From contig NZ_CP108513.1 in NCBI RefSeq assembly GCF_035989285.1, forward strand, positions 10,726,001-10,790,000: a stretch of DNA of 64,000 nucleotides. The letters run 5' to 3'. Positions 16,556 to 42,299 of the stretch are shown piece by piece (position 1 is the stretch's first letter; every line of letters starts with the position of its first letter). Origin of the DNA: Streptomyces sp. NBC_01235 (GTDB taxonomy: Bacteria > Actinomycetota > Actinomycetes > Streptomycetales > Streptomycetaceae). The notes under the pieces are model-generated. The model was not told where the DNA came from and ran no database searches. It saw only the letters and a program-made list of their open reading frames with translations. The position numbers and the translations under genes are program-made.

Positions 16556-16783
16556 CGGAAAGGGAGGCCACCAGTGTCCAGGAGGAGAGACCAAGGGGCC
16601 AGGAGAACAGGTCCAGGGGCCAGGCGGACGGGCACCCCGGCCCGTACGGAGTGGGGTACGGCGTCAGCGGCGCCGTCGCCGTCATCGAGCCCGGCCGACC
16701 GCGTCCACCAGGAACTGTTCCACGCCGGCGACGTTCCGCCCGCCCGCCCCACGGCCCACCAGGAGAGGGATACGCACGACCGC

Positions 16784-18364: not shown

Positions 18365-18389
18365 CGGGGACTCCGGCGCCTGACGGGCA

Positions 18390-23915: not shown

Positions 23916-23945
23916 GCGGCATGAGCCTGCCATGGGCTGCTCGTG

Positions 23946-24049
23946 GTCTCAAGATCCCGTACGTGGTCCGCAACGACTGGCAGAGCCGAGGCCTGGCCAT
24001 GGCCGCCGCCCTGACCTGCTACAAGAAGCTCGCGAAACTTGCCACGTGA
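23946..24049 (+). pseudogene. Transposase C-terminal tail
   Basis: A short frame (GLKIPYVVRNDWQSRGLAMA, then TCYKKLAKLAT and TGA at 24049) looks like the last 35 residues of a DDE transposase or similar protein. It has no start or other domains. It forms the last relic before the azole cluster's low-GC upstream region. Confidence 0.35.
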
Positions 24050-24506
24050 GACACCCGCTAAGTGGTTGGCAGGTTGAAGACCAAGCTCAACATCTTTAAC
24101 GATTCAATCAGACCCTCGATCGTTGCGTGTCCGGCCACCGGCTTGGTGTCCTCGCGATCGCGTCTCGACGTACGGACGAGGGGCACAGGCGTCGGCCCGC
24201 GGCTCAGTGAACAGATCACGCCAGATCCTCCTCGAAAAGAGGATCCAGCAGTCTTCGACGTGTCGAAAATTTCGAAATGTTTAATCGCTGCGATGTCGGA
24301 GTGGCGGAAGTCAGCAGTGCAGTCTTCCTCGAACAAGACCGTGGTACGTGAAACTTTCTGGAATGGCGAAGGTTTCGAAAGGTCAGGATCCGGCCACATG
24401 GCGAGAAATCGAAGCGCTTCAACATGTCTATTGACTTTCACGCTTGGGCTTTGTGATCGTGAGGCGTCACCACTCGTACTGGCAACCAAGAAGGGTTGAC
24501 CTGGCA
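24050..24506. other. Lower-GC region upstream of the repeat ORF
   Basis: GC drops visibly below the flanks. Frames on both strands are open but none matches a family I know. The minus-strand frame ending near 24061 (FRHSDIAAIKHFEIFDTS, then ATIEGLIESLKMLSLVFN) has protein-like composition and could be the end of a small unknown protein. This stretch may be the left boundary of a transferred island. A weak TTGACT at about 24431 could be a -35 box for the repeat ORF. Confidence 0.3.
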
Positions 24507-24752
24507 ATGACGCGTGAACGAGCGATGGTTCCGGCCTCCAGCGACAACGGGCGTGCACGGGCGATGGTTCCGGCCTCCAGCGACAATGGGCGTGCACGGG
24601 CGATGGTTCCGGCCTCCAGCGACAATGGGCGTGCACGGGCGATGGTTCCGGCCTCCAGCGACAACGGGCGTGCACGGGCGATGGTTCCGGCCTCCAGCGA
24701 CAATGGGCGTGCACGGGCGATGGTTCCGGCCTCCAGCGACAACGGGCGGTAG
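24507..24752 (+). CDS. Six-repeat ORF, candidate multi-core RiPP precursor
   Basis: 81 residues from ATG 24507: a five-residue start (MTRER) then five full and one partial copy of AMVPASSDNGRAR, with the stop TAG directly after the last NGR. The only base that varies between copies (AAC/AAT) is silent in this frame but changes Thr/Met in the next forward frame. Each unit offers two Ser and Arg-rich borders. A TTG at 24444 would add a 21-residue leader; AAGAAGGG is 11 bp before the ATG. All six frames are open through the repeat, so coding is not proven. Alternative: a minisatellite or a minus-strand product. Confidence 0.4.
   Translation: MTRERAMVPASSDNGRARAMVPASSDNGRARAMVPASSDNGRARAMVPASSDNGRARAMVPASSDNGRARAMVPASSDNGR
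24522..24748. repeat. Tandem array of 39-bp repeats, 5.8 copies
   Basis: Copies start at 24522, 24561, 24600, 24639, 24678 and 24717; the last is 32 bases long. Units are identical except for a single C/T position (C, T, T, C, T, C). The unit length is a multiple of three. Each full unit contains the palindrome GTGCAC. There are no unique spacers, so it is not a CRISPR array. Confidence 0.97.
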
Positions 24753-24851
24753 CTTCCGCCCTGAACTACGAAACATGCCGGAAATCCTGGGACCTTTCCC
24801 TCGGTTCCGGTAAGTATGCAGTCTGAATGGCCTGGCCAGGCAGAATTCAGT

Positions 24852-24895
24852 GCGTGTGGTTTCGGTTCCATTATCCCGGTATCGAAACCACACGC
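24852..24895. terminator. 13-bp perfect hairpin between repeat ORF and operon
   Basis: Bases 24852-24864 and 24883-24895 are perfect inverted repeats of 13 bp around an 18-base loop, extendable by wobble pairs. It lies 99 bp after the repeat ORF stop and 56 bp before the first operon gene. Without a following T-run it is not a classical terminator. It could be an attenuator separating a highly expressed precursor from the enzymes, a regulator's operator, or an RNA processing site. Confidence 0.55.
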
Positions 24896-24951
24896 GTCCC
24901 TGACAGTAAGAATTCACCTACGGCAGTCGCACCACCGATCGCGAGGATGCT

Positions 24952-26307
24952 GTGTGGCCCGATGGTAAGAACTTTGGCGAGGCGCTCAACGACTGGATGG
25001 ACGGCGTGTCAGGGATCCTCGACGTGCCCGAGGCGCTGGTCGAGGACTCGGCAGCCGCTTCCGCCGACTTCCTGCTATGCGCGCTGATCAGCCGGGTTCA
25101 GGCGGGTGAGGGCGGCCGGCGTGCCGACCATGGCACCGATGCCGACGGCACCGCGGGCGCTCCCATCTGGTGGACGGGAAAGACGGCCACGGCCGAACGC
25201 GCGGCCTCGGCGAATCTCGTCGCTGGCATAGCCGCCGATTTCGACTCGGTTCACTATTTGGCGGGAGGGCACCTGGCAGCTTTCCTTACACCGTCGCTGT
25301 TCGACCGGCCCGGTGTCTCTGTGGACGACACACTGCGCATTCAAGCAGTCGCTACCGAGTTCGGTGTGCGTCTAGGGCAGGCGGTGAAGGACCAGGTGCG
25401 TGCCAACGCATTTCATGTCACGCCGATCATCGGGGGACTGAGTGCTGTCTACGCGCTGGCCCGCAGAAGCGGATTCCCCGTGGAGCGCATCAGATGGTGT
25501 CTGCGCCTCTACCTCTCGACATACAGGTCCGACTATGAACTCCTGGGCAGCGACGGGCGTATGTACCAGATGGGTCAGGCCATGAGGCAAGCGCACGGCG
25601 TGGTTGCGGAAGGTGGTGTGCACTCCAAGGTCGATCGACGCGCTGCCAACGAATGGTGGCAACCATTTTCTGTCATGGGTGTACCGATGAATACTCCTCC
25701 AAAGAAATCGGAACAGTGGCTCTCCCGTTCAGGGACCACCACTTTGAAGTCCGCGCCGTGCTGCGCGTACTTCTTTGAAACCTTGGCTGCTGTCGCAGAC
25801 CTCCGGCGAAGAGTTCTCGGTGGCACATTGCGGCAGCTGCACGTACACATCCCGCGGTACGCCCTCGCCGCACATCGTGGTTCGGCCGGTGTCACCTGGC
25901 TGGACCCGTTCGATCTTGTGCACAACATCGCCATCTGTTGGGTGCTGGGAAGGGACTCCTGGACCCCATTGGCTGAACTGCCGACCGACGTCGTGAAACG
26001 GGCCGCGAAGCTGATCACGCTGCACGAAGTCTCTGATCGGACACCGGCTGCAGTGACGGCGGTGATGAGTGACGGAGTCGTGGCGGGTAGCGCTGAAACG
26101 ATCCATAAGCAGAACGGCCGAGGACGCACTTACCCGGCACTACAACGGAAGGCCGAAATCGTGAGCGGACATCTCAACGGGGAACGGCGACGACTGGAAG
26201 CTGCGGATGATCCACGGCGACTGTTACGCCGTCTCCTCGACGTGTGCGGCGAGGACGTCGACGAGCAGACGGGTGGAGCGCGTGTGACCGTCGGAGGGCT
26301 CCAGTGA
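24952..26307 (+). CDS. MmgE/PrpD-like protein (first operon gene, TTA codon)
   Basis: 451 residues from GTG 24952, the only start after the stop at 24907, with GAGG 5 bp upstream. The central part resembles the MmgE/PrpD fold (2-methylcitrate dehydratase, iminodisuccinate epimerase, cis-aconitate decarboxylase): SANLVAGIAADFDSVHYLAG, AVATEFGVRLGQAV, NAFHVTPIIGGLSAVYALAR. Active-site residues are not confidently placed. Such a lyase/dehydratase/isomerase fold is unexpected in an azole peptide operon. It may make or modify a small building block for the adenylation enzymes, or eliminate water on a peptide. The Leu codon TTA at 26224-26226 suggests bldA-dependent, developmentally timed expression. 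Confidence 0.6.
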   Translation: MWPDGKNFGEALNDWMDGVSGILDVPEALVEDSAAASADFLLCALISRVQAGEGGRRADHGTDADGTAGAPIWWTGKTATAERAASANLVAGIAADFDSVHYLAGGHLAAFLTPSLFDRPGVSVDDTLRIQAVATEFGVRLGQAVKDQVRANAFHVTPIIGGLSAVYALARRSGFPVERIRWCLRLYLSTYRSDYELLGSDGRMYQMGQAMRQAHGVVAEGGVHSKVDRRAANEWWQPFSVMGVPMNTPPKKSEQWLSRSGTTTLKSAPCCAYFFETLAAVADLRRRVLGGTLRQLHVHIPRYALAAHRGSAGVTWLDPFDLVHNIAICWVLGRDSWTPLAELPTDVVKRAAKLITLHEVSDRTPAAVTAVMSDGVVAGSAETIHKQNGRGRTYPALQRKAEIVSGHLNGERRRLEAADDPRRLLRRLLDVCGEDVDEQTGGARVTVGGLQ

Positions 26308-26897
26308 CGTTCCCCCCGGTTGAAGTGTCCAGCGTCCACGTTCTCACGCCCCAGGCTTACACGTCCGTGTCCACGGAGTTGAAAGCGCTGCTGTCCACCG
26401 ACGGTGAGCGCAACTCGGCATACGAGGGCGAAACTGCGGCGCAGGCCTTGTGCGTGGATGTCGTGGGCGTCGGCGAAATCGATGATCTTCTTCCCAGAGC
26501 CCTCGACTGGACTCGACGCGGCGGCCTTCACCTTCCCGTCGTCGTCGGCGCGCAGCACACATCCGTGGGACCGCTCACCAATCCGGGCTACGCCGCCTGC
26601 ATCCAGTGCGCCGGCTACCGCGGTTGCTTCGACTCGACGACACCACCTGCCGTGGCGGACGGGCATGTAAGTCCGACCGATGTCTCATCGCTCACCGTGA
26701 AGCTGATCTCCGTCACGGTGGCACAGGAGATCGACAGAGTTGTGCGTGCCGAGAACACCCTGCCCATGACCCTGGGCGGCTTGATCAGTATCGACCACGC
26801 CACGGGGACAGTGGGCATCGAGAGGGTCGGCCAGGTCGACGGCTGCGAAGTGTGCTCGTCACTGATCGAGTTCGCCTTCCAGGGGGCGCTGGGATGA
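26304..26897 (+). CDS. E1-like zinc protein of azoline cyclodehydratase
   Basis: 197 residues from GTG 26304, overlapping the previous stop (GTGA). Recognised by the cyclodehydratase block HTSVGPLTNPGYAACIQCAG and a second Cys pair near the end (CEVC). C99, C102, C181 and C184 would form the tetra-Cys zinc site of E1-like (C) proteins from thiazole/oxazole-modified microcin pathways. The family partner presents the peptide to YcaO. It is shorter than usual, and no winged-helix leader-binding (RRE) domain is evident at the N-terminus, so substrate recognition may differ. The next gene is the YcaO partner, overlapping by 4 bp. Confidence 0.75.
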   Translation: MTFPPVEVSSVHVLTPQAYTSVSTELKALLSTDGERNSAYEGETAAQALCVDVVGVGEIDDLLPRALDWTRRGGLHLPVVVGAQHTSVGPLTNPGYAACIQCAGYRGCFDSTTPPAVADGHVSPTDVSSLTVKLISVTVAQEIDRVVRAENTLPMTLGGLISIDHATGTVGIERVGQVDGCEVCSSLIEFAFQGALG

Positions 26898-28090
26898 ACA
26901 GAATCCATGAACTGCAGCCGCATCGCATACGTCAGCTTGAAGATCTGCTCCTCGAACAGAGCGGCCAGGTATCGACTCTCCAGCCCCTTGACGACTTCTA
27001 CAACGACGAGCCTCGGGGGCAGGGCTGGGTGGCGCAATTGCCGCCCAATTCGCACTTGCCGCTGGGTTCGGCCCATAATCCGCGAGCCACCGGAGGGCGG
27101 GGGCGAGGGGAACTGGCTCGGCTGAAAGCCCTGATGGAGGCAGCTGAGCGCATCTGCCTCAGCACGATACCTAAGGAGAGACTCTGGTACGGCTCGGCAT
27201 CGGAGCTCGACAACTGCCTCGCCGCCGAGGCGTTTCCGACACCTTGGCGGGATTCTCCGGTATGGCGGATGCCCCTTCACTGGTGCGAGGCCACCAAGAT
27301 CGGCTCACCGTCATCGGCGCCCATCCTGATTCCGGCCCAACTCGTCTACTGCCCGTTCAGGGAAACCGATGAGCGCGCGATGCTCTGGGACCCGAGCAGT
27401 AATGGCGCTGCCGCCGGCTTCTCAGTCGAAGATGCGGTGGTGCGCGCGACGCGGGAGGCATTCGAACGTCACGCCATCATGCTTTCCCACTACTTGCGGC
27501 TGAGTGGCCGGGAAGTCGACTGGCGCGACCTGGCCCTTGAGCCAGGTCCCATGGCCATGGGGATGGAGGCAACGGCGCTGGGGCTGGGGATACGTGTGGC
27601 ATGCCTGGTCGAGACGCCCTTCCCCGTGGCCGTCTGCCGTGTGGTCGACCCGTCCGGCAGGTTTCCGGCGCTCACCACCGGCAGCGCCTGCGGCGTCTCA
27701 CTCGAGGAAGCCGTAGGCGGTGCGATGAGCGAGGCACTGTACGCCCGCAGGCAGGCTCGGGACTTCCTGACGAACGTCGAGGCCGTGGACGCGAGGGATC
27801 TGGAGACGATCGAGGACCGCGTCGTCTACTGGGGTCAGCCACAAACGATGGAGAGACTTGATTACCTTTTCGGCAGCTTCATGCCGCTTGAAGGTACCTA
27901 CACGAACGGCTTCCTGGACGAGGGATACATGGCGGACATCACAACACCGCTGTTCGCCAAAGCCGGAATTTCGGTTGTGAAGGTTGTCTACCCGCGGCTT
28001 CAACCCCTGTTCTTCGCCGAGGGCGAGAAGCGGATTCTTGGCGATCCGGACGCGAGTTTTATTTCCTCCGAACCGCACCCCTATGCCTGA
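26894..28090 (+). CDS. YcaO-domain cyclodehydratase
   Basis: 398 residues from ATG 26894, overlapping the E1-like gene (ATGA). YcaO proteins use ATP to activate the backbone amide so that Cys, Ser or Thr side chains close to azolines. Visible signature blocks are ELARLKALMEAAERICL (ATP site Glu), FRETDERAMLWDPSSNGAAAG, EDAVVRATREAFERHA with the Glu/Arg pair, and TGSACGVSLEEAVGGAMSEAL. The C-terminus ends in a Pro-spaced EPHPYA tail, as in azoline-forming YcaOs. With the E1-like and SagB genes beside it, azol(in)e formation is the best assignment; thioamidation or macroamidination seems less likely. Confidence 0.85.
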   Translation: MNRIHELQPHRIRQLEDLLLEQSGQVSTLQPLDDFYNDEPRGQGWVAQLPPNSHLPLGSAHNPRATGGRGRGELARLKALMEAAERICLSTIPKERLWYGSASELDNCLAAEAFPTPWRDSPVWRMPLHWCEATKIGSPSSAPILIPAQLVYCPFRETDERAMLWDPSSNGAAAGFSVEDAVVRATREAFERHAIMLSHYLRLSGREVDWRDLALEPGPMAMGMEATALGLGIRVACLVETPFPVAVCRVVDPSGRFPALTTGSACGVSLEEAVGGAMSEALYARRQARDFLTNVEAVDARDLETIEDRVVYWGQPQTMERLDYLFGSFMPLEGTYTNGFLDEGYMADITTPLFAKAGISVVKVVYPRLQPLFFAEGEKRILGDPDASFISSEPHPYA

Positions 28091-28102
28091 CGGGAAGTGA
28101 AT

Positions 28103-28876
28103 ATGAGCGCAGACAAGGGCGCGGCTGTTTCGGCACTCGATTTTCATCGGACAACCTACGCCGACGCGGCGATGCTCTCCGACTGGGCGATGCTTCCCGT
28201 CGACCAGTGGCCCGATGAGTGGTTCACGTACAACGAAAAGAGTTTCCCACGCCTTGAGAGCGTGCAGCTCCAGGTGCCGGAGGCTCCGCCTTCCGGCCTT
28301 GGCGGTGAATGGCTGGCCCGTCGGACCAGCAGTCGGTCCGCTCTCGACCAGATGTCTCTCGCTGCTCTCTCCCAGGTGCTCTGGTACACGACACACTCCG
28401 ATCCGCCGGAAGAACACGCTCCCGGCAGCTGGCATCGTCCGTACCCGTCCGCCGGTGGGCGCCTCGGCTGCGAGTTCTACGTCATCGCGCGAACCGTCGA
28501 AGGCCTTCCGTCAGGCGTCTACAGCTACGGCGTGGCTCGCCATGAGCTGAATCGGCTGCGTCCCGCTGCGACCGAGTCCATGCTGCGCTTCATCTTCGGC
28601 GACGGGTGGGTGACAAGGACCTGTGCGCTCCTGATCATCACGCTGTCGATGGACAGGCTCGAGACGAAGTACGGCGACCGCGGGTACCGCTACGGGTTGA
28701 TCGAGACCGGCGCCGCCTCACAAACGGTCTCCCTCGTGGCCGGTGCCGCGTCGATCGGGTCCTGCATCCTCGGCGGGTTCGCGGACGTTCCGTTGGGCCA
28801 ACTTCTCTTGTGCACCCCCGAATCGGAAGTGCCGGTGGCAACCATCGCCTTCAGCCTCATAGAGGAGGAGCGCTGA
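28103..28876 (+). CDS. SagB-type FMN-dependent azoline dehydrogenase
   Basis: 257 residues from ATG 28103; GTG 28097 is also in frame, but GGGAAG favours the ATG. This is nitroreductase fold of the SagB/McbC type, which oxidises azolines to aromatic azoles with FMN. Evidence: RRTSSRSALDQMSLAALSQV (FMN phosphate site), RPYPSAGGRLGCEFYVI, LPSGVYSYGVARHEL, and KYGDRGYRYGLIETGAASQ, which carries the catalytic Lys-Tyr pair described for McbC-like enzymes. IGSCILGGFADVPL closes the fold. It lies 12 bp after YcaO and 1 bp before the oxygenase gene. Confidence 0.87.
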   Translation: MSADKGAAVSALDFHRTTYADAAMLSDWAMLPVDQWPDEWFTYNEKSFPRLESVQLQVPEAPPSGLGGEWLARRTSSRSALDQMSLAALSQVLWYTTHSDPPEEHAPGSWHRPYPSAGGRLGCEFYVIARTVEGLPSGVYSYGVARHELNRLRPAATESMLRFIFGDGWVTRTCALLIITLSMDRLETKYGDRGYRYGLIETGAASQTVSLVAGAASIGSCILGGFADVPLGQLLLCTPESEVPVATIAFSLIEEER

Positions 28877-28877
28877 G

Positions 28878-29930
28878 ATGCTCGTAACGGACGCCAACGT
28901 CGAACCCGTTCTGGGCGTCGGCCGGACAGAGCTGTCCGAGGCGAAGGGGCGTAGGTGGCTTCACCGGAGCGCCGCCCTGCAGCCCCACGACACCTACTCG
29001 TGGAACGACCTGAACACGTCCTTGCAGTACGGCAATCTCGGTCCGGATCAAGTGCGACTCGTCGGCGGTGACGTGTCGGTCGACGAGCTGTTCCTCATGT
29101 CGGTCGCGGGTGGCTCGCGCACCTTCCTCCGAATCGTCCCCGAGACAGTGCACCGGGCCCTCGCGACCGGCGGGACGCTTGTGATCGACCAGCTGGACCT
29201 GATCAACCCCTGGGCCGATCAGGTGTCCCGCGCTCTGGCCGGCATCTTCACCACACGGGTCCAGGCCAATCTCTACGCATCACTGCGTGGAGCGCCCGGA
29301 TTTGGTGCACACCAGGACACCCATGACGTCTTCGTGGTCCAGGGCCGCGGGAAGAAGCACTGGACCTTGGGGACCGGGGCCGAGACCACGCAACTGACCA
29401 TGGTTGCGGGTGACGTGCTGTACCTGCCCGAGGGCACCAGCCATGACGTGGCCACCGGCACTGAAGGGTCGTTGCACATCACTTTCGCCATCCCGCGGCC
29501 CAATGTGCAGGAGCTGCTGGCGTGGACGATCGACAACTCACAGGACACCGGTCTGCTGGCAGCCATCGACGAGGGCGATCCCGGCGCCACGGCCACGGTA
29601 CTTGCCGAGCGAACGCACAAGATCAGTGACACCAAGGTGAGTGCTTTCCTCGAAGAAGGATTGAGCAAAGGGGTGGCACCGTCGTACGTGAACCTTCCCC
29701 ATGTGGTCCGTGAGGCCGAACCAAGCGGGACCACCACGCTCTTCGCCCGGCGCTCCTTCGTGAACATCCTGCCCGACGGGGCGGACGAGCACGCACAGGT
29801 TCTGGCCTGTCTGAGTGCGACCGACGAGATGGCGGTGCAGGACCTGCTCTCTGTCAGCGGTGTGAGCAAGCCACTCGACGTGGTCCGCGAACTCGCGCAG
29901 TGGGGCCTGATCAGCCTGTCGGAGCGTTGA
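28878..29930 (+). CDS. JmjC/cupin 2-oxoglutarate Fe(II) oxygenase
   Basis: 350 residues from ATG 28878. The double-stranded beta-helix has the metal triad H145, D147 (GAHQDTHDVFVVQ) and H189 (LPEGTSHDVATG), with GRGKKHW supplying the 2-oxoglutarate Lys. It is closest in pattern to ribosomal-oxygenase JmjC proteins (YcfD/NO66-like), which hydroxylate Arg or His side chains, and a winged-helix-like C-terminal part (DLLSVSGVSKPLDVVRELAQW) fits that group. In this operon it likely hydroxylates a residue of the precursor; the repeat ORF is rich in Arg, Asn and Asp. Substrate is inference only. Confidence 0.8.
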   Translation: MLVTDANVEPVLGVGRTELSEAKGRRWLHRSAALQPHDTYSWNDLNTSLQYGNLGPDQVRLVGGDVSVDELFLMSVAGGSRTFLRIVPETVHRALATGGTLVIDQLDLINPWADQVSRALAGIFTTRVQANLYASLRGAPGFGAHQDTHDVFVVQGRGKKHWTLGTGAETTQLTMVAGDVLYLPEGTSHDVATGTEGSLHITFAIPRPNVQELLAWTIDNSQDTGLLAAIDEGDPGATATVLAERTHKISDTKVSAFLEEGLSKGVAPSYVNLPHVVREAEPSGTTTLFARRSFVNILPDGADEHAQVLACLSATDEMAVQDLLSVSGVSKPLDVVRELAQWGLISLSER

Positions 29931-29931
29931 G

Positions 29932-31041
29932 GTGCACCGAATGCGGGAGGTGGCTCCCGGGCTGGGGTGGTACGACTACGACGGCGACGTCGGCGCGTTC
30001 GCGCTGACGTTTCCCGCTGGCTTTCATGCGGAAGGCGCCGACCGTCCCGGTCTCGCCCACTTCACCGAACACATGCTCATGGCGCCGAGGGACGGGGCCG
30101 CGCGCCCGTACGCCCAGCTCGAGGAACACGGTTGCCTGCTGGAGGCGCAGACCAGACGGGACCATCTCACCGTCACCGTCAGCGGACCACAAGGACACCT
30201 GCTGCGCGCTGCCGAGACCATGGTCGCCCACCTCACCGACCTTCGCCGTCCGGCCAGCGCCGCCCTTCAGCAAGCGGAGATCATCCACAACGAAGTGCTG
30301 GAGAAGACCGGGCTCGCTCCCTGGTCGGATCGCTGGCGTTGGTGCATTCCCACGCCTGGCGGTGGGATCGGCGTGGACCACGACCCGGTCGTCGCCCCGG
30401 CGCTCGCGGGGCTTGCGGTCTACGAGGAGGGTTGGAAGGCGTTCGCCGTGCAGAACATCCGTCTCGAGCGGTGCAGTGCCGCAGTGGTCGCCGACCCGGC
30501 GCTGGTTGCTCCCGAGGACATGGAATCGGTGCTGGGTCCCAGGTCGCTGCCTGACGCCCGTGACGTTCCGCGACCCGACACTGACTCCCGGATGCTTCGG
30601 GACGAAATCGTCCTTCCGGTGGACACCAACGACCTTGCCGGGCAGAGCGCCGCGTTGATCGCAGCCAAGCTGGTGGCGAGAGAGGCGGCCGCGGTTCACC
30701 GTCAAGCGTGTGCGGACATGCGGTACGGCCTTTTCGACGAGTGGTTCAGTGAGAACGCCGCGACGATCGTCACCGTGCCCGTCCCCTCCGACCTCGATTT
30801 CGGTGCGCTCGAGCGGCGACTGCACAGGCTTCGAGAGACCGCGGTCGAGCCGAGCGCCATGAACTGGGCTCGCGAGCAACTACTGCAGGAGTGGGCCGCG
30901 CGCGTCAAGTCACCCTCGGCGTGCGCCCGGTCGATGGCCTGGATGCTGTCCGGCGGACGACTGGGCACTCCTTTTGCACCACTCGACTCCCGCCTTGTCG
31001 AGCGCAGCGCATCCGCGGCTGCCATGCTGATGGGGGCCTAG
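29932..31041 (+). CDS. M16-family zinc metallopeptidase (catalytic subunit)
   Basis: 369 residues from GTG 29932 (ATG 29941 also possible). The inverted zinc motif HxxEH is intact as HFTEHM (H43, E46, H47), and the third ligand is probably E121 in IIHNEVLEK, at the spacing expected for M16. M16 enzymes work as clams with two half-domains, often split into active and inactive subunits; mitochondrial processing peptidase and PqqF-type enzymes are examples. The following gene supplies a non-catalytic half. Role inferred: leader removal or cutting between cores. M16B enzymes often choose sites near Arg. Confidence 0.85.
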   Translation: MHRMREVAPGLGWYDYDGDVGAFALTFPAGFHAEGADRPGLAHFTEHMLMAPRDGAARPYAQLEEHGCLLEAQTRRDHLTVTVSGPQGHLLRAAETMVAHLTDLRRPASAALQQAEIIHNEVLEKTGLAPWSDRWRWCIPTPGGGIGVDHDPVVAPALAGLAVYEEGWKAFAVQNIRLERCSAAVVADPALVAPEDMESVLGPRSLPDARDVPRPDTDSRMLRDEIVLPVDTNDLAGQSAALIAAKLVAREAAAVHRQACADMRYGLFDEWFSENAATIVTVPVPSDLDFGALERRLHRLRETAVEPSAMNWAREQLLQEWAARVKSPSACARSMAWMLSGGRLGTPFAPLDSRLVERSASAAAMLMGA

Positions 31042-31614
31042 ATGCCAAAGCCCATGACGCGTGTGAACCGTTGGGGCATGACCATGGACCTCGTCCGGCG
31101 GCCCTCGCACTTCTCTGCCACTGCGTCCGTGCGAGTCGCCTCCCCCGACGATGTGCTGTCGTGGCTGTGCCTGTGCGAGTGCTTCGCGGGCGGCTTCTCA
31201 AGTCCCCTGATGCGTGCGGGCCGACTCAACGGCACGTTGTTCCGTGTTCATCTGGCGCTGCTCCCCAGCATGCCCGGCGACGGCGTCCTGGCGCTGACGT
31301 TCACCTCCTCTGCGCGGTCTGAGCCGACGAGCCTGGTGCGTGTTCAGCGGGCGCTCGACAGAATTCTGGAGGCCGGCGAGGTGACGCCCGCTCAGTGGCA
31401 AAGCGCAGCGCTTCGCCTGCGGACTCGGCTGGACACCAGTGATCGCCTGCCGCGTCGTTCGCTGTGGCACCGGTCCCCGTACGATGCCCGCCTCGTCGAT
31501 CCGTTGTCGTGGGCGGCGCGCACTTGCCCCGGCCACGAGATCTACGAGCATCCGCTGGCCGCGTTGGTGCACGAACTGTCGGGACATCACGCGGACGTGC
31601 AGGGGAGGCGGTGA
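31042..31614 (+). CDS. M16-like non-catalytic partner
   Basis: 190 residues from ATG 31042, directly after the catalytic subunit. It lacks HxxEH. The segment CECFAGGFSSPLMRAGRLNGTLF, followed by LALTFTSSARSEP and LDRILEAGEVTPAQWQSAALRLR, matches the C-terminal substrate-binding half of M16 proteins (the G-SSPL...R loop). It probably completes the peptidase chamber as a separate chain. Assignment rests on pattern and position. Confidence 0.6.
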   Translation: MPKPMTRVNRWGMTMDLVRRPSHFSATASVRVASPDDVLSWLCLCECFAGGFSSPLMRAGRLNGTLFRVHLALLPSMPGDGVLALTFTSSARSEPTSLVRVQRALDRILEAGEVTPAQWQSAALRLRTRLDTSDRLPRRSLWHRSPYDARLVDPLSWAARTCPGHEIYEHPLAALVHELSGHHADVQGRR

Positions 31615-32846
31615 TGGGTTCCTCTGTCGAGAAGAAGACGCCGAGCCCCGTCAAGGTGCTGCGCAGGACCAGCACGGCCTCGAGCCTGGAAGACGGTGCG
31701 TTCGCCCTGGTCCTGCCGGTTCTCGCGGAGCAGTCCACCGGGAAGTACGGTGTGGCGGCGGTCTTCGTGGCGGTGACGGCACCCTGGGCACTGGCGTCAC
31801 TCCCGATCGGATATCTCGCCGACCACATGTCGCGCACGCGTCTGCTGAGGATCGTGGCCGTGGTGCGCATAGGGCTCGCCGCACTGCTTGCCGCTCTGTA
31901 CCTGCTCGGCAGTCCCGTGCCGGGGCTCGTGGCTGTCGTGGCTTTCGGGTTGGGCAGCTGCGCTGTGGCTTCGGAGATCGCGCGCCAGTCGCTCGTGCCG
32001 CAGCTGGTGTCGAATCCGGACCGGCTCGTCTCCGCCAACACGGAGATCGCCAAGGTGTCCCAGCTGTATGGCGGCTTCGTCGGACCGTTGGTGGGCGGCG
32101 GGCTGCTGACCTGGAGCCAATCGGGTGCCACGCTCGCTCTGGCGGTGTTGGCCCTGATCACTCTGATCGTGACGCTGGGCCTACCGGAAACCCCTGCCCT
32201 GAGTGACGAACCCATGCGCGTACAGACCATGGTGACAGTGGGGTTGGACGGATTCCGCCACATCTACCGTCAGCGCATGCTTTTGACTCTGGCCGCTCTG
32301 AGTTTCACGGTCTCGGTCATCTGGTACGTCTGGCAGACGTCCTTCACGGCCTTCGCACTGGCAGACAACGGTCTGGGCGCCTCAAGCCTCGGCTACTCGG
32401 TGCTGCTCCTGGCCGGCACAGCGGGAGCGCTCGTCGGCAACCAACTGGTGCAGCATCTAACGCGGACGTTTCCCTTGCGCACTGTGTTGTCCATGAGCCT
32501 GGTCGTCTGGGTCATCTGGTTCGTCGTTCCCGCTCTGACATCGAGTTGGTACGCGATCCTCGTCGGCCTCGTCCTGGGCGGTTCCGCCGGGCTGCTGTGG
32601 AACACCGTCTCCATCACGGCTCGACAACTAGTCACCGAGGGACACCTGTTGGGTCGGACGACCGCCGCATACCGGATGGTGACGCGCACGGGCCGGGTGA
32701 TCGGGGCGGCCATCGCGGGACTGATGATGACGCACACCTCCTGGCAGCACATCTTCGCCATCTGTGCCGGTGCCGTCGGAGCCGTGGCTGTCGGAATCCT
32801 TGTTCTCTACCGTGACCGATCCATGCTCGAGCCGGAAGTGCGGTGA
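31614..32846 (+). CDS. MFS exporter
   Basis: 410 residues from ATG 31614 (GTG 31611 also in frame), overlapping the previous stop. About 12 hydrophobic segments with the MFS loop after helix 2 (IGYLADHMSRTRLLRI) and a central charged loop (LPETPALSDEPMRVQ). It looks like the MFS_3/EntS-type drug or siderophore exporters. No ABC transporter lies in the operon, so this is the likely exporter or self-resistance pump for the product. Membrane-bound. Confidence 0.85.
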   Translation: MGSSVEKKTPSPVKVLRRTSTASSLEDGAFALVLPVLAEQSTGKYGVAAVFVAVTAPWALASLPIGYLADHMSRTRLLRIVAVVRIGLAALLAALYLLGSPVPGLVAVVAFGLGSCAVASEIARQSLVPQLVSNPDRLVSANTEIAKVSQLYGGFVGPLVGGGLLTWSQSGATLALAVLALITLIVTLGLPETPALSDEPMRVQTMVTVGLDGFRHIYRQRMLLTLAALSFTVSVIWYVWQTSFTAFALADNGLGASSLGYSVLLLAGTAGALVGNQLVQHLTRTFPLRTVLSMSLVVWVIWFVVPALTSSWYAILVGLVLGGSAGLLWNTVSITARQLVTEGHLLGRTTAAYRMVTRTGRVIGAAIAGLMMTHTSWQHIFAICAGAVGAVAVGILVLYRDRSMLEPEVR

Positions 32847-34318
32847 CGTCGTTGACCACTCCACGGAACACCAGCCGGTCGGCCGGCGAGTGGATGCCCG
32901 CCGCGTCTCTCGTTCTCCACTCGCGCGACGGCAGCACGCAGTTCCTCGAACCGGAGGGTATCCGAGCGCGCTTGTCGCAGATCCGAGGGGAGCTGCGCCA
33001 GGAGGTGGCCTCCGACGAGTCCATCTGCCTCCTGCCCAACGGGCAAGCGCCGTTCACGCGCTTCCTGTTGGAGCTCCTTGCAGCCCTTGGACTGCCAAAT
33101 CCTGTGGCCGTACCGGACGATGACACCTCTGCGTCGATCGCTCAACTGGCCCGCCTGGGGTTGACGGCTCGTGCGCTCGGACAGGAACGGCAGCCACGCG
33201 ACGAGCCCGCCCGGCGCGAGGTACTGCCGCGCCATGCCCTCCTGCTCAGAACCGGGGGCACCAGCGGTCGGGTCCGTTACGCGGTGAACACCAGCATGCG
33301 CCGCACCCTGGGCCGGGACCGCCGGTTGAGCCTGGCGAGCGCGCTGGGACTGAAGGACGAAATCCGTGTCTCTCTTGCCGGATCGATTCGTCACGCCGCC
33401 CATCTGAGCATGCTGTTGGACGCGTTGAACTATCGCACACAGGTCCACCTGTTCGAGAAACCCGACCCCGCACAGGTGTTGGACCACGTCCGCCGAGATA
33501 GCGTCCAGTGGCTCGTCACCACTCCACTTCATCTGCGGATCATGCAACGCCAACTGCAGGACGGTGAGGGGACGTCGGACCTCAAGACCGTCGTCCATAT
33601 GAGTGCGGCCTGCTCGATGCCGATCAAACGGTTCTGGCACTCCACGCTCGGTCCCGAGAACGTGTACGAAGTGTTCGGAGCCTCCGAGGGAATCGGGACC
33701 ACGGTGGCTCGTGGGGATGAATGGGAAGAGCGTCCCGGAACGGTCGGCAGGGGCTTCTACACCTCAGTGACCGTCATGGACTCCTCCGGCCGCCCGGCGG
33801 CGCCGGGCGTACTGGGTGACGTCTACTTCAAGAGCGGAATGTCGGCGCGACCGCTGCACGTCGGACAACGAGACCTCGTCACTTGGACCAGCGACGGGCA
33901 AGTTAGCATCGGCGACCGCGGCAGGCTCGACACGGACGGCTACCTCTATCTCGAGCCGAGGCCTCAGCTGCGGATCACTGTCGGTGGGACCACTGTCCTG
34001 GCCACGGACATCGAGGAGGCGCTGCTCGACATCCCCGGGATCCAGGACGCGGCTGCGGCGGCAGTCTCCAATCATGTGACGGGGCAGCGTGTCGTCTGTT
34101 TCGTGGTGCGCGACTCCCACGGTTCCGATGCCGAGCCGAACGAGTTGATTCCGGCGCTGCGACGGGTACTGCCGCCCGCCGCCGTTCCTCGCAGAATCAT
34201 CGAAGTAGAGGCCGTTCCCCGGTGGCTGTCGGGCAAGGTCAACCGCACTTTGATCTCGGAAATGGCGCAGAAGCACTTCGCAAGGGAGAAGAACAGTGAC
34301 CGTGCAAGCGATTCCTGA
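32843..34318 (+). CDS. Adenylate-forming enzyme 1 (A3 motif altered)
   Basis: 491 residues from GTG 32843, overlapping the exporter stop. ANL-superfamily core motifs are visible: LLRTGGTSGRVRYA (A3 P-loop, lacking the usual Lys), YEVFGASEGIG (A5), SIGDRGRLDTDGYLYLEPR (A7/A8) and LSGKVNRTLI with the A10 Lys. It should activate a carboxylic acid as acyl-AMP for transfer to CoA or the carrier encoded next. The substrate pocket cannot be read by eye. Loss of the P-loop Lys may lower or change activity. Confidence 0.8.
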   Translation: MTSLTTPRNTSRSAGEWMPAASLVLHSRDGSTQFLEPEGIRARLSQIRGELRQEVASDESICLLPNGQAPFTRFLLELLAALGLPNPVAVPDDDTSASIAQLARLGLTARALGQERQPRDEPARREVLPRHALLLRTGGTSGRVRYAVNTSMRRTLGRDRRLSLASALGLKDEIRVSLAGSIRHAAHLSMLLDALNYRTQVHLFEKPDPAQVLDHVRRDSVQWLVTTPLHLRIMQRQLQDGEGTSDLKTVVHMSAACSMPIKRFWHSTLGPENVYEVFGASEGIGTTVARGDEWEERPGTVGRGFYTSVTVMDSSGRPAAPGVLGDVYFKSGMSARPLHVGQRDLVTWTSDGQVSIGDRGRLDTDGYLYLEPRPQLRITVGGTTVLATDIEEALLDIPGIQDAAAAAVSNHVTGQRVVCFVVRDSHGSDAEPNELIPALRRVLPPAAVPRRIIEVEAVPRWLSGKVNRTLISEMAQKHFAREKNSDRASDS

Positions 34319-34781
34319 CAATCCGTATTTCCCAGGGATTTACCGCCGCACGGCGGACAATGCCTGTGTCGTCGCCGTGGCACCCCGGTCCTTCATGTCC
34401 GTGCCGGAAGTGCGCGCCGTGTTGAGCGAGGTCCTCGCGACCCAGCCGCACCGATTCGTCTTCACGGTCCTTCACTCGGGGGAAGGCCTGCAGGACGACA
34501 CCATCAGCGACGAGGTAGTGGCCACCAGGAAGTTCCACCGGATGCAGTCCTCCGAAGGACCGGTGGAGTCGCTGTTGGCGGAGAGAATCCACCTCACCCT
34601 GCCTGATGCCGCGGTACTCAGCATGACCGACGACATCAAGGACCTGGGGGGTGATTCGTTGCTCTGTCTCGAGTTGAGCGAGGCCATCGCCGACATCTGG
34701 GATGTCGAGATTGAGCCCGTGGATGTCTTCCGGGTCAACTCCCTGGCAGCCCTTGCCGCGGATATCGAGGCGGGACGATGA
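34296..34781 (+). CDS. Carrier protein (acyl/peptidyl carrier domain)
   Basis: 161 residues from GTG 34296, overlapping the previous gene by 23 bp. The C-terminal 80 residues are a phosphopantetheine carrier: DDIKDLGGDSLLCLELSEAI with the attachment Ser, then VEIEPVDVFRVNSLAALAADIE. The N-terminal 75 residues (FPGIYRRTADNACVVAVAPRS, then an EVLATQPHRFVFTVL strand) form an extra unknown domain not typical of free carriers. It lies between two adenylation enzymes and before a condensation enzyme, so it probably shuttles their acyl or aminoacyl group. Confidence 0.82.
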   Translation: MTVQAIPDNPYFPGIYRRTADNACVVAVAPRSFMSVPEVRAVLSEVLATQPHRFVFTVLHSGEGLQDDTISDEVVATRKFHRMQSSEGPVESLLAERIHLTLPDAAVLSMTDDIKDLGGDSLLCLELSEAIADIWDVEIEPVDVFRVNSLAALAADIEAGR

Positions 34782-36202
34782 CGTCCGTGGCCTTCGACCT
34801 GCTGGCCAACGGCGCGTACGACGCGGCGGCTCTTGTCGATGGAACACAGGTTCTCACCCGCGGGCGGGCACGGGAGATGGCCGATGGCATCGCCCGATTC
34901 CTGGGCGATGACGCCAAGAAGCTCGTGATGGTGGAGAACCCTCGTTCCTTGACGGGAGCTCTGGCTTATGCGGCCGTGCTACGTGCCGGCCATGCGGTGA
35001 TGCTGGTGGAAGCCGCGGGCTACGGTGACGCGACGACGTTGATCGAGCGACTTCGCCCGGATGTGCTCATGGGGCCCTCATGTGTCAGAGCGTCCGAAGC
35101 TTCACCGTATTACCAGCACCACGTGCGGGAAGTTCCTCACGGCGGGGTGGCTCGTTGGGTCATTGACGCTAATCCGGCCGCGCTCGCACAGGAGTTGGCC
35201 CTGGTCGCACGCACCTCCGGCTCCACATCCGAGGGCAAACTGGTACGGCTCTCCTACGGCAACCTCGTGAGTAACGCCGAAAGTATCGTTGCAGCGACAG
35301 ACATCCGTGGATCGGACGTCGTCGCGACGTCACTGCGCTTGGACTACAGCTTCGGTCTGTCCATGTTCCATTCTCATCTCGTGGCGGGCGCCACCGTGGG
35401 TCTGACCACGGCATCGCCGACCACCGACCGCTTCTGGGCGGATGTCGAGCGCTGGGGTGTGACGTCCACGGGGATGGTTCCGTCCACGGTGCGTTTCATC
35501 CTGCAGGATCCGGTGTCGAAGGCGCGGTTGTCCGCGCTGCGATCGCTGCTGGTGGCCGGCGGTCCGTTGCGGGCCGACTCGCTGCGACGGCTTCGTGAAG
35601 CGGTCGGTCCGGAGGGTTCCGTCTTCTACATGTACGGCCAGACCGAGGCGACTGCGCGGATGACCTGCATGGACCCGGCATTGGCGGCCGAGCACGAAGG
35701 AAGTGTCGGAGTTCCGATATCGGGTGGGCGGATCGAGATTCGCGGACCGGACGGATCCGAGGTCGTCCCCGGCCGACGGGGCGAGGTGTACTACAAGGGA
35801 CCCAACGTCATGCTCGGCTATGCCGTCATACGTGACGATCTTGCACTGTCCGACCTCTGCGGTGGGGAACTGCGGACGGGTGACATAGGCCGGTTGCAAG
35901 ACGGCGTGTTGTATCTCGAGGGCCGCGTCGATCGCCAGGTCAAGGTACTGGGTGAAAAGGTCAATCTGGACGCTGTCGAGGCCGCCGCGGTGTCGGCCCT
36001 CGGCGGGACAGCCGCAGCCGCCGTGTTCATGGAACCCGATCAGGTCCACCTCCATGTCGAGGGAGGACCTGAGTCTCTGAAGCGGCTGCGTTCCTGGGGA
36101 CTGGCTGGTCTGGGAGTTCCGCCGGGCTGCCTGAAGCTGCGAACCGTGGAACATCTCCCGAGAACACCTTCCGGCAAAGTGAGGTACCTCTTGCTGAGTT
36201 GA
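34778..36202 (+). CDS. Adenylate-forming enzyme 2
   Basis: 474 residues from ATG 34778, overlapping the carrier gene (ATGA). Core motifs are complete: VARTSGSTSEGKLVRLSYGN (A3), YMYGQTEATARM (A5), LRTGDIGRLQDGVLYLEG (A7), VDRQVKVLGEKVNLDAVE (A8) and LPRTPSGKVRYL with the catalytic A10 Lys. Text is closer to acyl- or aryl-CoA ligases than to NRPS amino-acid domains, but pocket residues are not decoded. Two ligases for one carrier suggests either two substrates or one ligase acting on the peptide terminus. Confidence 0.83.
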   Translation: MTSVAFDLLANGAYDAAALVDGTQVLTRGRAREMADGIARFLGDDAKKLVMVENPRSLTGALAYAAVLRAGHAVMLVEAAGYGDATTLIERLRPDVLMGPSCVRASEASPYYQHHVREVPHGGVARWVIDANPAALAQELALVARTSGSTSEGKLVRLSYGNLVSNAESIVAATDIRGSDVVATSLRLDYSFGLSMFHSHLVAGATVGLTTASPTTDRFWADVERWGVTSTGMVPSTVRFILQDPVSKARLSALRSLLVAGGPLRADSLRRLREAVGPEGSVFYMYGQTEATARMTCMDPALAAEHEGSVGVPISGGRIEIRGPDGSEVVPGRRGEVYYKGPNVMLGYAVIRDDLALSDLCGGELRTGDIGRLQDGVLYLEGRVDRQVKVLGEKVNLDAVEAAAVSALGGTAAAAVFMEPDQVHLHVEGGPESLKRLRSWGLAGLGVPPGCLKLRTVEHLPRTPSGKVRYLLLS

Positions 36203-36285
36203 ATGATTGTGGCAGGGAGTGCAGGAGCACGGCTCGACGCGAAATGGGCCTCTGCTGGACCAGGGGACGGGATGCTGAGGAGGCG

Positions 36286-37635
36286 ATGCCGGACATGAGT
36301 GAAATGACGACACTGACAGTGCGGGGCGAACCAGGCGTCCTGCCCTTTACTTGGGGGCAGCGGTGGTGGTGGAACGAGTGTCCTCCCGAAAATCCGGAGA
36401 GGAGAAGAGGAAACATGATCATCTCCCTCGAATTTCCGTCCGGCATGTCTCTCAAGAGTGCCCTGGAGACGCTGGAAGGGATCGCCGGAAGATTCGACAC
36501 CTTGCGGACACGATACGAGCTCACCGGCGAACCCGAACCGGTTCAAGTGGTTGAGCGCCAGGCGCAGATCCCCGTCTATCTATATGCTGCGGAAAGTGAT
36601 TGTCCGGGACTCCCGGAGAGCATTGACTCGTCAATGCGCACACATAATTTTGATCTTCTTGGGCATCCACCCGTCTGTTTGGCTATCGGGCTGGGAAGCG
36701 AAGGAGAGCCAGTCCGCCTCCACGCGTTCCTCGACCATATCGTCACCGACTTGGTGGGTGCCATATACCTGAAGCGCTATTTTCGAAGTGTCATCTTCAG
36801 GGAAGGGGCCCCCGCCGGCGCGATACATCAGCCCGCCGATCAGGTGGCCCTTGAGTCTACGGAAGCCAGACGGCGGCGCAATGAAAAGGCTATCGAATAT
36901 TGGAGATCCGAGCTGACGGCGCCCTCCCCTGATGCATGGTTGTCCCGTGTGGCCGAGACGAGGAGTGGAAGCGCCCTAAACTTTGCCAAGGTCTCCCTGG
37001 AATCCCCATTCCTTGGCGCAGCTCTTCCGATTATCGCAGAGCGTCATCAGGTGAGCGTCGCGCATGTTCTCTGCCATCTTGCAGCCTTGACTTTCGAAGG
37101 CTTCGCGGAAATTCCGCCTTTCTTCAACATGATCGTCTCGACCCGCCGTTCTCAAGTGGAACGGTCTGCCCTGGGGATGTATTCGCGATCCATACCGATC
37201 ATCCTGAAATCGCGAGGGCGGACGGTTGAGGAGCGCATCAGAGACTCGGCGAGAACAATGATGCACGGACAGCTCTTTGCTGCGTGTGACCCCACGGATT
37301 TCGATGCGGTGTGCCGAGAATCCGGATGGCCGGACAGAGCGATGATCGGGGTTTCCCTCAATGATGGATACAGTGCCACGACCAACCCGTCGGCACAGCC
37401 CGGCACGCGAAGGGATGACCTCAATTCCCTCTTGAAGCTCAGTAATTACGAGTACCCGAGCTTCCGGGTTTATCAAAATGGGCGTGCGATCAAGCTCGAC
37501 TCCGGAAAGAGCCCGACAGGCATATTTCGCCTATCTCTCGAGGTGGATGCCCGACTATTTTCCGCTTCCGCTGCAGAAAAAGCTCTGGGTGAAATCGAAG
37601 AACGGGTGCTGATGTACCTTAAAAAGAGCCTGTGA
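36286..37635 (+). CDS. Free-standing condensation-domain enzyme
   Basis: 449 residues from ATG 36286, chosen because GAGGAG lies just upstream; an earlier TTG at 36199 would overlap the previous gene but adds odd residues. CoA-dependent acyltransferase/condensation fold: LPFTWGQRWWW at the start, the HHxxxDG site present as DHIVTDLVG (catalytic second His and Asp kept, first His replaced by Asp), and a late FNMIVSTRRSQVERSALGMYS latch-like block. It likely joins the carrier-bound acyl group to an amine, perhaps the modified peptide. Codons are markedly AT-richer than neighbours (ATA, AAA, AAT), a sign of transfer. Confidence 0.75.
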   Translation: MPDMSEMTTLTVRGEPGVLPFTWGQRWWWNECPPENPERRRGNMIISLEFPSGMSLKSALETLEGIAGRFDTLRTRYELTGEPEPVQVVERQAQIPVYLYAAESDCPGLPESIDSSMRTHNFDLLGHPPVCLAIGLGSEGEPVRLHAFLDHIVTDLVGAIYLKRYFRSVIFREGAPAGAIHQPADQVALESTEARRRRNEKAIEYWRSELTAPSPDAWLSRVAETRSGSALNFAKVSLESPFLGAALPIIAERHQVSVAHVLCHLAALTFEGFAEIPPFFNMIVSTRRSQVERSALGMYSRSIPIILKSRGRTVEERIRDSARTMMHGQLFAACDPTDFDAVCRESGWPDRAMIGVSLNDGYSATTNPSAQPGTRRDDLNSLLKLSNYEYPSFRVYQNGRAIKLDSGKSPTGIFRLSLEVDARLFSASAAEKALGEIEERVLMYLKKSL

Positions 37636-37650
37636 AGACAGGGATTGCCT

Positions 37651-38676
37651 GTGCGGAAAGATGGCCGGACTCCCGAGTCCGTGACGCGTATCCGTGTCCT
37701 GCTGAAGGAATGGGTGGACCGCAAGATCATCCTCGGTGCTCAGGTGTTCTCTCTGGAGGATGGCGTGGCCTGTCACATCGTGGCAGGAGAAGCAGCCCCG
37801 GGGACCGACGTCACGCCGGACATTGTCGGACGGCTCTACTGCGCGAACAAGCCCGTGCTGGCCGTCAGTACGGGCATTGCGTCGGAGGAGGGCCTCGTCG
37901 GCCTGCACACCCCGCTGTCACACTACTTCGACGACTGCACGCCGGCCATGGCGGCGGTGACCATTGCGGATCTCCTCGGACACACCGTCAGGCTTCCGCC
38001 CACTCTGTACAAGAACACCGCCTCACTGGACGAACGGGCTCGTCGCATCGTGACTTGTGCCGTGCCTCGACCGGGAAACGCGCACTACAACGCACAGACC
38101 ACGTCGGCGTTGCTCGGCGCGATTCTCGAGCGTGTGTACTCGATGCCCCTCGAACACGTCATAGCCGAGAAAGTCGCTGCCCCGCTTGCCCTGCGCGACC
38201 TGTCCCTTGTGCCGCGCCCGGGCCAGCAATACGGCCCACTGCATCGCCGTGACGGAAGCATGCGCTTCGTTCCAGTCGAGGACGAGGCGCGAGGCTTGAG
38301 CCCGGTAAATCCCGGTCAGGCCGGCGTATCGACGGCCGCAGGCATGGGCCTGGTGTACGCGGATCTCTTGAATTCCCTGAAAGGCCATGGGACTCTGCTT
38401 GCACCGTCAACTGCCATGAGTTTGCTCGAAATCAGCCGTTCGATACAGCTCTACGACCTCGGTCCGCGCAGCTGGGGTCTCGGCTTCCAGCGTGACTTGC
38501 AGCAGGGCATCTTGGGGGCCGGGTGGAGCCGTGACACCTTCGGCCATGTGGGCACCGCTCCGCGGCGCATCGTTGTTCTTCACGCGGCCGATCCGGTTTC
38601 AGGTCGTGTTCTGACGTTCAGGCTCTTCAGCATTGTCGATGATCATCGGGTGCAGCAGCTGACGACGATGTCGTGA
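37651..38676 (+). CDS. Beta-lactamase-fold enzyme with Cys nucleophile
   Basis: 341 residues from GTG 37651 (TTG 37645 also possible). Class C beta-lactamase/esterase fold with three motifs: CANK in place of SxxK (Cys codon TGC 37840-37842), YNAQ in HYNAQTTSALLGAIL for the YxN site, and HVG in FGHVGTAP for the KTG/HxG site. The Ser-to-Cys swap suggests acyl transfer through a thioester rather than simple hydrolysis. Family relatives act as transacylases or esterases in antibiotic pathways. It is last in the operon and could release, transfer or trim the acyl group. Cytoplasmic: no signal peptide. Confidence 0.78.
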   Translation: MRKDGRTPESVTRIRVLLKEWVDRKIILGAQVFSLEDGVACHIVAGEAAPGTDVTPDIVGRLYCANKPVLAVSTGIASEEGLVGLHTPLSHYFDDCTPAMAAVTIADLLGHTVRLPPTLYKNTASLDERARRIVTCAVPRPGNAHYNAQTTSALLGAILERVYSMPLEHVIAEKVAAPLALRDLSLVPRPGQQYGPLHRRDGSMRFVPVEDEARGLSPVNPGQAGVSTAAGMGLVYADLLNSLKGHGTLLAPSTAMSLLEISRSIQLYDLGPRSWGLGFQRDLQQGILGAGWSRDTFGHVGTAPRRIVVLHAADPVSGRVLTFRLFSIVDDHRVQQLTTMS

Positions 38677-42228: not shown

Positions 42229-42299
42229 ACAACAATCTTCTAGCACCGGTTTTCGTTCCGGTGTGCCTCAACCCCCTCGTCTCTCACGTCAAGATCGGC

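Follow-up and report, generated by a model that had tools for sequence, protein, structure and literature searches.

A Streptomyces gene cassette joining a repeated-core precursor and azole-type enzymes to a stand-alone carrier line

Streptomyces sp. NBC_01235 carries a compact set of genes in which enzymes of the azole-forming type stand next to ligases, a carrier protein and a condensation enzyme, and the question raised by this locus is what these enzymes act on, and whether the two groups of genes serve one pathway. The locus lies in a stretch of 64,000 nucleotides (hereafter the window), positions 10,726,001-10,790,000 of an 11.09-Mb single-contig genome. An earlier note on this DNA had proposed azole chemistry on a ribosomally synthesised and post-translationally modified peptide (RiPP), but it missed the precursor gene, without which 'azole RiPP' could only be guessed at from the enzymes. 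A precursor open reading frame (ORF) was recovered ahead of the enzyme genes, and we lean towards reading the locus as a 14-gene cassette in which oxazoles would be formed on the Ser-Ser pair of six AMVPASSDNGR units, the units being cut at Arg, likely capped via a ligase-carrier line, and exported. The DNA itself holds the precursor ORF, conserved in place and content, a hairpin, enzyme families with intact motifs, and a cassette common to relatives; the azoles, the cap and the product, which would be an oxazole RiPP with multiple cores, no normal leader and units capped by stand-alone carrier chemistry, are what we infer from them.

The first gene of the cassette is the precursor:

24507..24752, + strand: precursor ORF, 81 amino acids (MTRER and six AMVPASSDNGR units with Ala-Arg spacers)

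It runs from ATG 24507 to TAG 24752, with GAAGGG upstream, and holds a tandem array (24512-24748; 39-bp period, 6.1 copies) with a score of 439, the next-best repeat of the window scoring 62. All six 11-residue units are identical, and a degenerate DNA pattern of the unit matched six times in the window, with 0 matches expected. The residues of the unit that could be heterocyclised are two Ser; it has no Cys and no Thr.

Six loci were compared: the window, L002 (S. bobili), L003 (S. harenosi), L004 (Streptomyces sp. 130), L005 (Streptomyces sp. AC550_RSS872) and G305, from the genomes of the genus, with L002 and G352 counted once. A precursor with the Ser-Ser peptide was present in all six, with six units in four loci and one in L004. 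In L003 it reads MMRER and then six units, in G305 MAMTDGR and then six units, and in L005 MPNER and six AMVPGSSDNGR units with Ser-Arg spacers, an Ala-to-Gly change within the unit. The L004 precursor has its one unit only (MVQQAMVPASSDNGR), and that of S. bobili is legible at both ends around a run of N, so that its peptide is seen only in part. Between four and seven residues stand ahead of the first unit. When four arrays were tiled without a codon assumption (21 full units), 14 columns were variable, of which 1, 2 and 11 fell on codon positions 1, 2 and 3, respectively. When codon variants were counted over 25 units from five loci, 17 were synonymous and 2 altered the residue, both of the latter being the Ala/Gly of L005; one reverse frame also gave 12 versus 4 in this count, and because its search pattern was partly anchored (most first and second codon positions fixed), the tiled count is the stronger evidence. 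The units are near-invariant while the enzymes of G305, the most distant locus, are at 43-67% identity and its condensation enzyme at 24%.

As a protein query the precursor gave 5834 candidates, none at E<=10, and it is absent from the protein databases searched. The unit pattern matched four of 392 genomes of the genus, six times each in G000 and G305 and once each in G075 and G097, with no match in G352 because of the N run in its array; viral contigs gave 0 matches. The single-copy MVPATTDNG matches in G075 and G097 were tried as Thr-Thr relatives and rejected, their neighbourhoods holding no such cluster. L028 and L029 are single MVPATTDNG stretches from two genomes of the genus without such a cluster, and their DNA wording is common to both.

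Behind the precursor, thirteen enzyme and transport genes occupy 24952-38676, all on the + strand, which with the precursor make up the cassette:

24952..26307, + strand: MmgE/PrpD-like protein, N-terminal domain (PF03972, E 1.5e-9)
26304..26897, + strand: short E1-like cyclodehydratase partner, 197 amino acids (TIGR03882, 34.7 bits, cut-off 36.9)
26894..28090, + strand: YcaO cyclodehydratase, 398 amino acids (PF02624, 119.8 bits, cut-off 25.7; C-terminus PHPYA)
28097..28876, + strand: SagB azoline dehydrogenase (TIGR03605, 104.1 bits, cut-off 78.4)
28878..29930, + strand: JmjC_2 oxygenase, whose relatives hydroxylate Arg or His (PF08007; 4nub, E 7.6e-6 over a short stretch)
29932..31041, + strand: M16 peptidase half (M16a) with HFTEH zinc motif (PF00675)
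31042..31614, + strand: second M16 half (M16b), assigned by position and size, always adjoining the first half
31611..32846, + strand: MFS exporter (PF07690)
32843..34318, + strand: ANL1, acyl-CoA-ligase-like (PF13193, PF00501; nearest solved structure, bile acid-CoA ligase 4lgc)
34296..34781, + strand: stand-alone carrier protein with GGDSL site (PF00550)
34778..36202, + strand: ANL2, adenylation-domain-like (PF00501; TIGR01733 under its cut-off; nearest solved structure 3wvn)
36199..37635, + strand: free condensation enzyme, start uncertain (PF00668)
37645..38676, + strand: beta-lactamase-fold protein with Cys replacing the SxxK serine (PF00144)

The families named in the earlier note were all recovered here with Pfam and NCBIfam, only the first M16 half matching Pfam. 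It had counted twelve genes, where there are thirteen, and had placed the PrpD-like gene first, which is in fact preceded by the precursor ORF and a 199-bp gap with a hairpin. Its description of the genes as mostly overlapping by 4 bp or separated by tiny gaps is borne out: of the 12 junctions among the thirteen genes, six are 4-bp overlaps, one is a 23-bp overlap and the remaining five are gaps of 0-9 bp, if the condensation gene is taken to begin at TTG 36199. The choice of this codon is uncertain because the database copy (P0001) has only 406 amino acids.

A YcaO-seeded scan of genome contigs yielded four loci (L002-L005) from 11 candidate stretches. Precursor, E1-like protein, YcaO, SagB, M16a, M16b, MFS protein, ANL1, carrier, ANL2 and beta-lactamase-fold protein were found in all six loci, the azole genes and the ligase/carrier genes occurring together at 43-94% identity. 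The precursor is preceded by the beta-lactamase-fold gene in L003, L004 and L005, and in L005 by the M16 pair as well. A set that recurs in six loci reflects more than chance, and the joint presence of azole and ligase/carrier genes in each of them supports the earlier claim of one unit. A split between RiPP and ligase genes, which the earlier note had named as evidence against its proposal, was not seen at the gene level.

Each gene family suggests a step in the pathway we favour. YcaO and the short E1-like protein would cyclodehydrate the two Ser of each unit and SagB would oxidise the rings, so that, with two Ser and neither Cys nor Thr in the unit, the azole trio would yield a bis-oxazole. 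SagB scored above the TIGR03605 cut-off in all three proteins scanned (window, L003, G305), and the C-terminal PHPYA of YcaO, whose PF02624 scan started from the upstream in-frame start 26606, is invariant in the six loci. Among the five loci scanned with TIGR03882, the E1-like protein of L003 (42.3 bits) lay above the cut-off of 36.9 and those of the window, L004, L005 and G305 below it; three orthologues matched no Pfam family at E<=1, no dedicated model of the RiPP recognition element being run. With a mere four to seven residues ahead of the first unit, the precursor is probably recognised through the repeated unit itself, and as the window E1-like protein moreover aligns with its family model from residue 76 on only, classical leader recognition looks absent. 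The JmjC protein, in which HxD and the distal His are kept in five of five copies, would hydroxylate the peptide, with Arg, Asn and Asp as conceivable sites. The M16 pair would free the units at the arginines: an Arg stands before every unit except that of L004, which suggests M16 cleavage at Arg, and HF[TA]EH is present in M16a of all six loci. The MFS protein would export the product.

For the cap, the carrier, which has its GGDSL site in all six loci, would be charged with an acid or an amino acid by ANL1, ANL2 or both. ANL2 is nearest to amino-acid adenylation models and ANL1 to acyl-CoA ligases; the sequence of ANL2 did not reveal its substrate. The window brings together parts of the nonribosomal peptide synthetase (NRPS) type, an adenylation enzyme (PF00501), a GGDSL carrier (PF00550) and a condensation enzyme (PF00668) with its catalytic His. 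The product may, as the earlier note predicted, be acylated or extended by carrier chemistry. The solved structure nearest to PrpD is B. subtilis IRG1 (7bra, E 4.5e-5), and D96, D98, H101, H107 and H155, within the region aligned to it, are kept in five of five copies. In L005, where PrpD has no match, a 31-codon C-terminal relic of JmjC stands immediately before M16a (L005:2896-2991), and the stretch upstream of the precursor (L005:5843-8508) encodes a TauD oxygenase together with large and small subunits that form an aconitase/homoaconitase-type pair. Neither the TauD protein nor the pair had a tblastn match in the other five loci, and a TauD gene common to L005 and G305 was dropped as a candidate (no tblastn match at 1e-3). 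The presence of PrpD in five loci, and of the aconitase-type pair in the remaining one, suggests a citrate- or aconitate-like loaded group, which PrpD, or the pair in that one relative, would likely supply; of all the steps proposed here, the nature of this acid is put forward the most tentatively.

The transfer of the loaded group to a peptide amine would fall to the beta-lactamase-fold protein, together with the condensation enzyme where present. The Cys nucleophile noted earlier for this hydrolase-fold protein was confirmed, as YC[AT]NK stands at the SxxK site in all six copies, the five that are full-length also having YNAQ and FGHxGT. The stress previously laid on the condensation enzyme was not upheld, and its role as the hub of the system was dropped because it is the least conserved part: it is 83% identical to the window protein in S. 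bobili and about 24% in L003 and G305. A database search with it returned seven matches, its own copy and that of S. bobili being close and the other five at 25-28%. The second His and the Asp of HHxxxDG are kept in four of four condensation proteins, with DHxxxD in the window. Because the Cys enzyme is constant across the loci and the condensation enzyme variable, the former is the candidate for transfer.

Several observations weigh against this pathway. PrpD and JmjC are found in five of the six loci and are missing in L005, and neither the L004 nor the L005 stretch (21 kb each) contains a match to the condensation enzyme. M16b has no Pfam match and no family above its cut-off. The single unit of L004 is preceded by Gln instead of Arg. 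The E1-like family takes its name from leader binding, contrary to leader independence, and the best NCBIfam model of YcaO, the azole-subfamily model TIGR03604, scores 110 bits, far under its cut-off of 219.25.

The variable condensation enzyme, and the arrangement of the gene groups as contiguous blocks, would also fit an operon that houses two separate small pathways, one leading to a multi-core oxazole RiPP and the other, independent of it and run by ligase, carrier and condensation enzyme, to another small molecule. We regard this as unlikely, since both groups occur together in all six loci, even in L005 with its losses and rearrangement, which keeps the azole trio, the M16 pair, the MFS gene, ANL1-carrier-ANL2 and the Cys protein though PrpD, JmjC and the condensation enzyme are lost. 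Moreover, among relatives searched with YcaO and the condensation protein only, none is known with one group alone.

Next in order, and doubtful in our view, is that each unit survives in small part, for instance as Ala/Gly-Ser-Ser, while the rest is a trimmed recognition tag and the carrier line builds on the short azole fragment. Thiovarsolins retain a tripeptide per repeat, with an Ala/Gly variant (PMC6511847), and the sole changed residue of the unit here is likewise the Ala/Gly before Ser-Ser. The whole unit is nevertheless near-invariant across loci, and while a tag plus fragment could give that pattern, a product made of the entire unit is the simpler explanation.

It is improbable that YcaO, the E1-like protein and SagB make another backbone change (a thioamide, an amidine or an azoline only) in place of oxazoles. 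This possibility arises because YcaO falls so far below the azole-subfamily cut-off, in a clade of its own: of 7,994 candidates scored with a profile of the six proteins, 25 matched, nine of them at 65-94% identity and sixteen at <=29%, so that as far as these matches go the YcaO is an isolated clade, an observation that counts for the favoured pathway as well. Of the nine close relatives, the seven named ones are from Streptomyces and one Streptacidiphilus, and three of the nine are shorter than 330 amino acids. Against it stand the SagB score (104.1 versus a cut-off of 78.4), the presence of the putative E1-like partner, and the lack of any TfuA match in scans of the cassette proteins. Finally, an array that is a non-coding or accidental repeat, with the true precursor elsewhere, can be dismissed as extremely improbable: no database protein matches it and tandem repeats can arise without function, but 11 of the 14 variable columns fall on third positions of one frame, the peptide is present in all six loci, and L004 retains a single copy of it.

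Returning to the oxazole cassette with capped units, a bolder version of it is possible, though we hold it tentatively. The cassette may represent a new RiPP class, in which a leaderless repeated-core precursor would be azole-modified in bulk and diced at Arg, and a Ser-to-Cys beta-lactamase-fold acyltransferase would cap the units via the carrier. The cap would be derived from citrate or aconitate, and the tailoring set (PrpD and JmjC, or the aconitase-type pair and TauD) would be swapped while the ribosomal part stays nearly frozen.

Between the precursor and the enzyme genes lies a further conserved element:

24852..24895, + strand: hairpin, 18 paired positions in the consensus

A strong hairpin is the best local fold of the precursor-enzyme gap in all six loci (-32.0 to -51.9 kcal/mol), a comparison that covered these six gaps and no control gaps. 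The fold of the window gap has z = -3.2, with one of 200 shuffles equally good. In the five alignable loci (the G305 hairpin could not be aligned and was excluded from the covariation count), 97.8% of cells pair and nine of the 18 pairs change on both sides; none of 500 shuffles reached four of the five measures, and 139 of 500 reached the fifth (further pair types). The pairing was lost when the partner strand was slid. Rfam gave no family match on 23900-25100, and a consensus scan found no terminator-like or promoter-like site at precursor or hairpin. An ordinary terminator was rejected because the hairpin has no T run; it may serve to favour precursor over enzyme mRNA.

The limits of the cassette were set by comparison with S. 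bobili:

24104..38676, + strand: whole cassette, the block common to the window and S. bobili, with unrelated flanks on both sides
24104..24506, + strand: region ahead of the precursor gene, likely its promoter and 5' leader, 84% to S. bobili

By blastn (L011/L012, G352), the window matched S. bobili over 24104-38671 and not beyond, the sole gap being the N run in the array. The stretch from 24409 on is retained in L003 as well, and a consensus scan of 24104..24506 found no promoter-like match. As had been reported earlier, the guanine-plus-cytosine (GC) content of the cassette (0.637) is lower than that of the left (0.683) and right (0.698) flanks, and all 42 overlapping flank windows of the same length lie above it (0.664 to 0.708). 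Taken as a sign of transfer, the low GC holds here, where it goes with sharp ends of homology, and these support the view that 24104-38676 is one cassette moving as a unit. It does not hold in general: among the cassette genes picked, GC at third codon positions is mostly 0.85-0.95 in L003 and 0.61-0.78 in L005, and low GC is thus typical of some copies only. Plasmid-borne relatives were sought and dropped (14 records, all under 60% identity, ten listed at 24-28%). This YcaO type is rare in the overlapping genome samples of genus, family and phylum, being found at E<=1e-60 in 3 of 392 genus genomes and at E<=1e-40 in 1 of 249 family, 1 of 396 phylum and 1 of 199 G305-relative genomes, the single matches being the centre genomes themselves.

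Among the neighbours, two adjacent Ser/Thr protein kinases with a GC of about 0.75 lie at 16574-20090 (+ strand), a weak TniQ-like match (E 2e-4, under its cut-off) lies left of the cassette at 20810-21493 (- strand), and a SUKH (SMI1/KNR4) family protein lies to its right at 41677-42246 (- strand). Downstream of the G305 cassette, L010:581-5997 encodes an FGE-sulfatase-type protein, a Na/H exchanger and a sulfatase.

No paper on this gene combination was found in searches of an open-access library, and searches with the peptide strings gave one unrelated match. In the thiovarsolin (var) cluster of Streptomyces varsoviensis, YcaO acts on a repeated-core precursor, with none to five repeats across the family (PMC6511847). 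The cassette resembles it in its YcaO, repeated cores, Ala/Gly core variant and MFS gene, and var clusters adjoin NRPS or polyketide synthase genes (PMC6511847). The account of thiovarsolins differs in a TfuA partner and thioamide, the heme-oxygenase-like VarO and a predicted leader peptide (PMC6511847), whereas the cassette has E1-like and SagB proteins, no matched TfuA, an M16 pair, and ligases and carrier within the operon. Relatives of two pheganomycin proteins, an ATP-grasp ligase and an amidinotransferase, are encoded in the thiovarsolin family too and are described as not needed for thiovarsolins (PMC6511847). In pheganomycin, a non-proteinogenic residue is joined to a ribosomal core by the ATP-grasp ligase PGM1 (PMC8939145). 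The proposed pathway would likewise join a non-ribosomal building block to a small ribosomal core peptide; it differs in that scans of the cassette proteins matched no ATP-grasp family, that the joining would fall to ligase, carrier and Cys protein, and that azole enzymes would take part as well.

YcaO, a putative E1-like partner and SagB are shared with linear azole-containing RiPPs, or thiazole/oxazole-modified microcins, a survey of which describes leader peptides, in contrast to the four to seven leading residues here; the words condensation, NRPS and M16 are absent from its main text (PMC4603692). A two-part M16 protease in a RiPP pathway, as here, is known from PttP1/PttP2 of class III lanthipeptides, which remove the leader, whereas the M16 pair of the cassette would separate repeated units (PMC10885120). 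The RiPP operon of biphenomycin encodes, like the cassette, a JmjC oxygenase (BipG) and an MFS protein, but BipG hydroxylates ornithine in a biaryl peptide, and the description of that pathway mentions no YcaO chemistry (PMC12707348).

If the favoured reading is true, ribosomal and carrier-based peptide chemistry would be joined in one compact operon, and azoles would be installed on a precursor without a normal leader, the repeated core acting as its own recognition element. How much leader a RiPP needs could then be tested directly with the 81-residue and the natural 15-residue substrates. Since the precursor was not found among database proteins, clusters of this kind would be filed without their substrate. 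The beta-lactamase-fold enzyme with Cys for Ser would be a candidate new peptide-capping catalyst.

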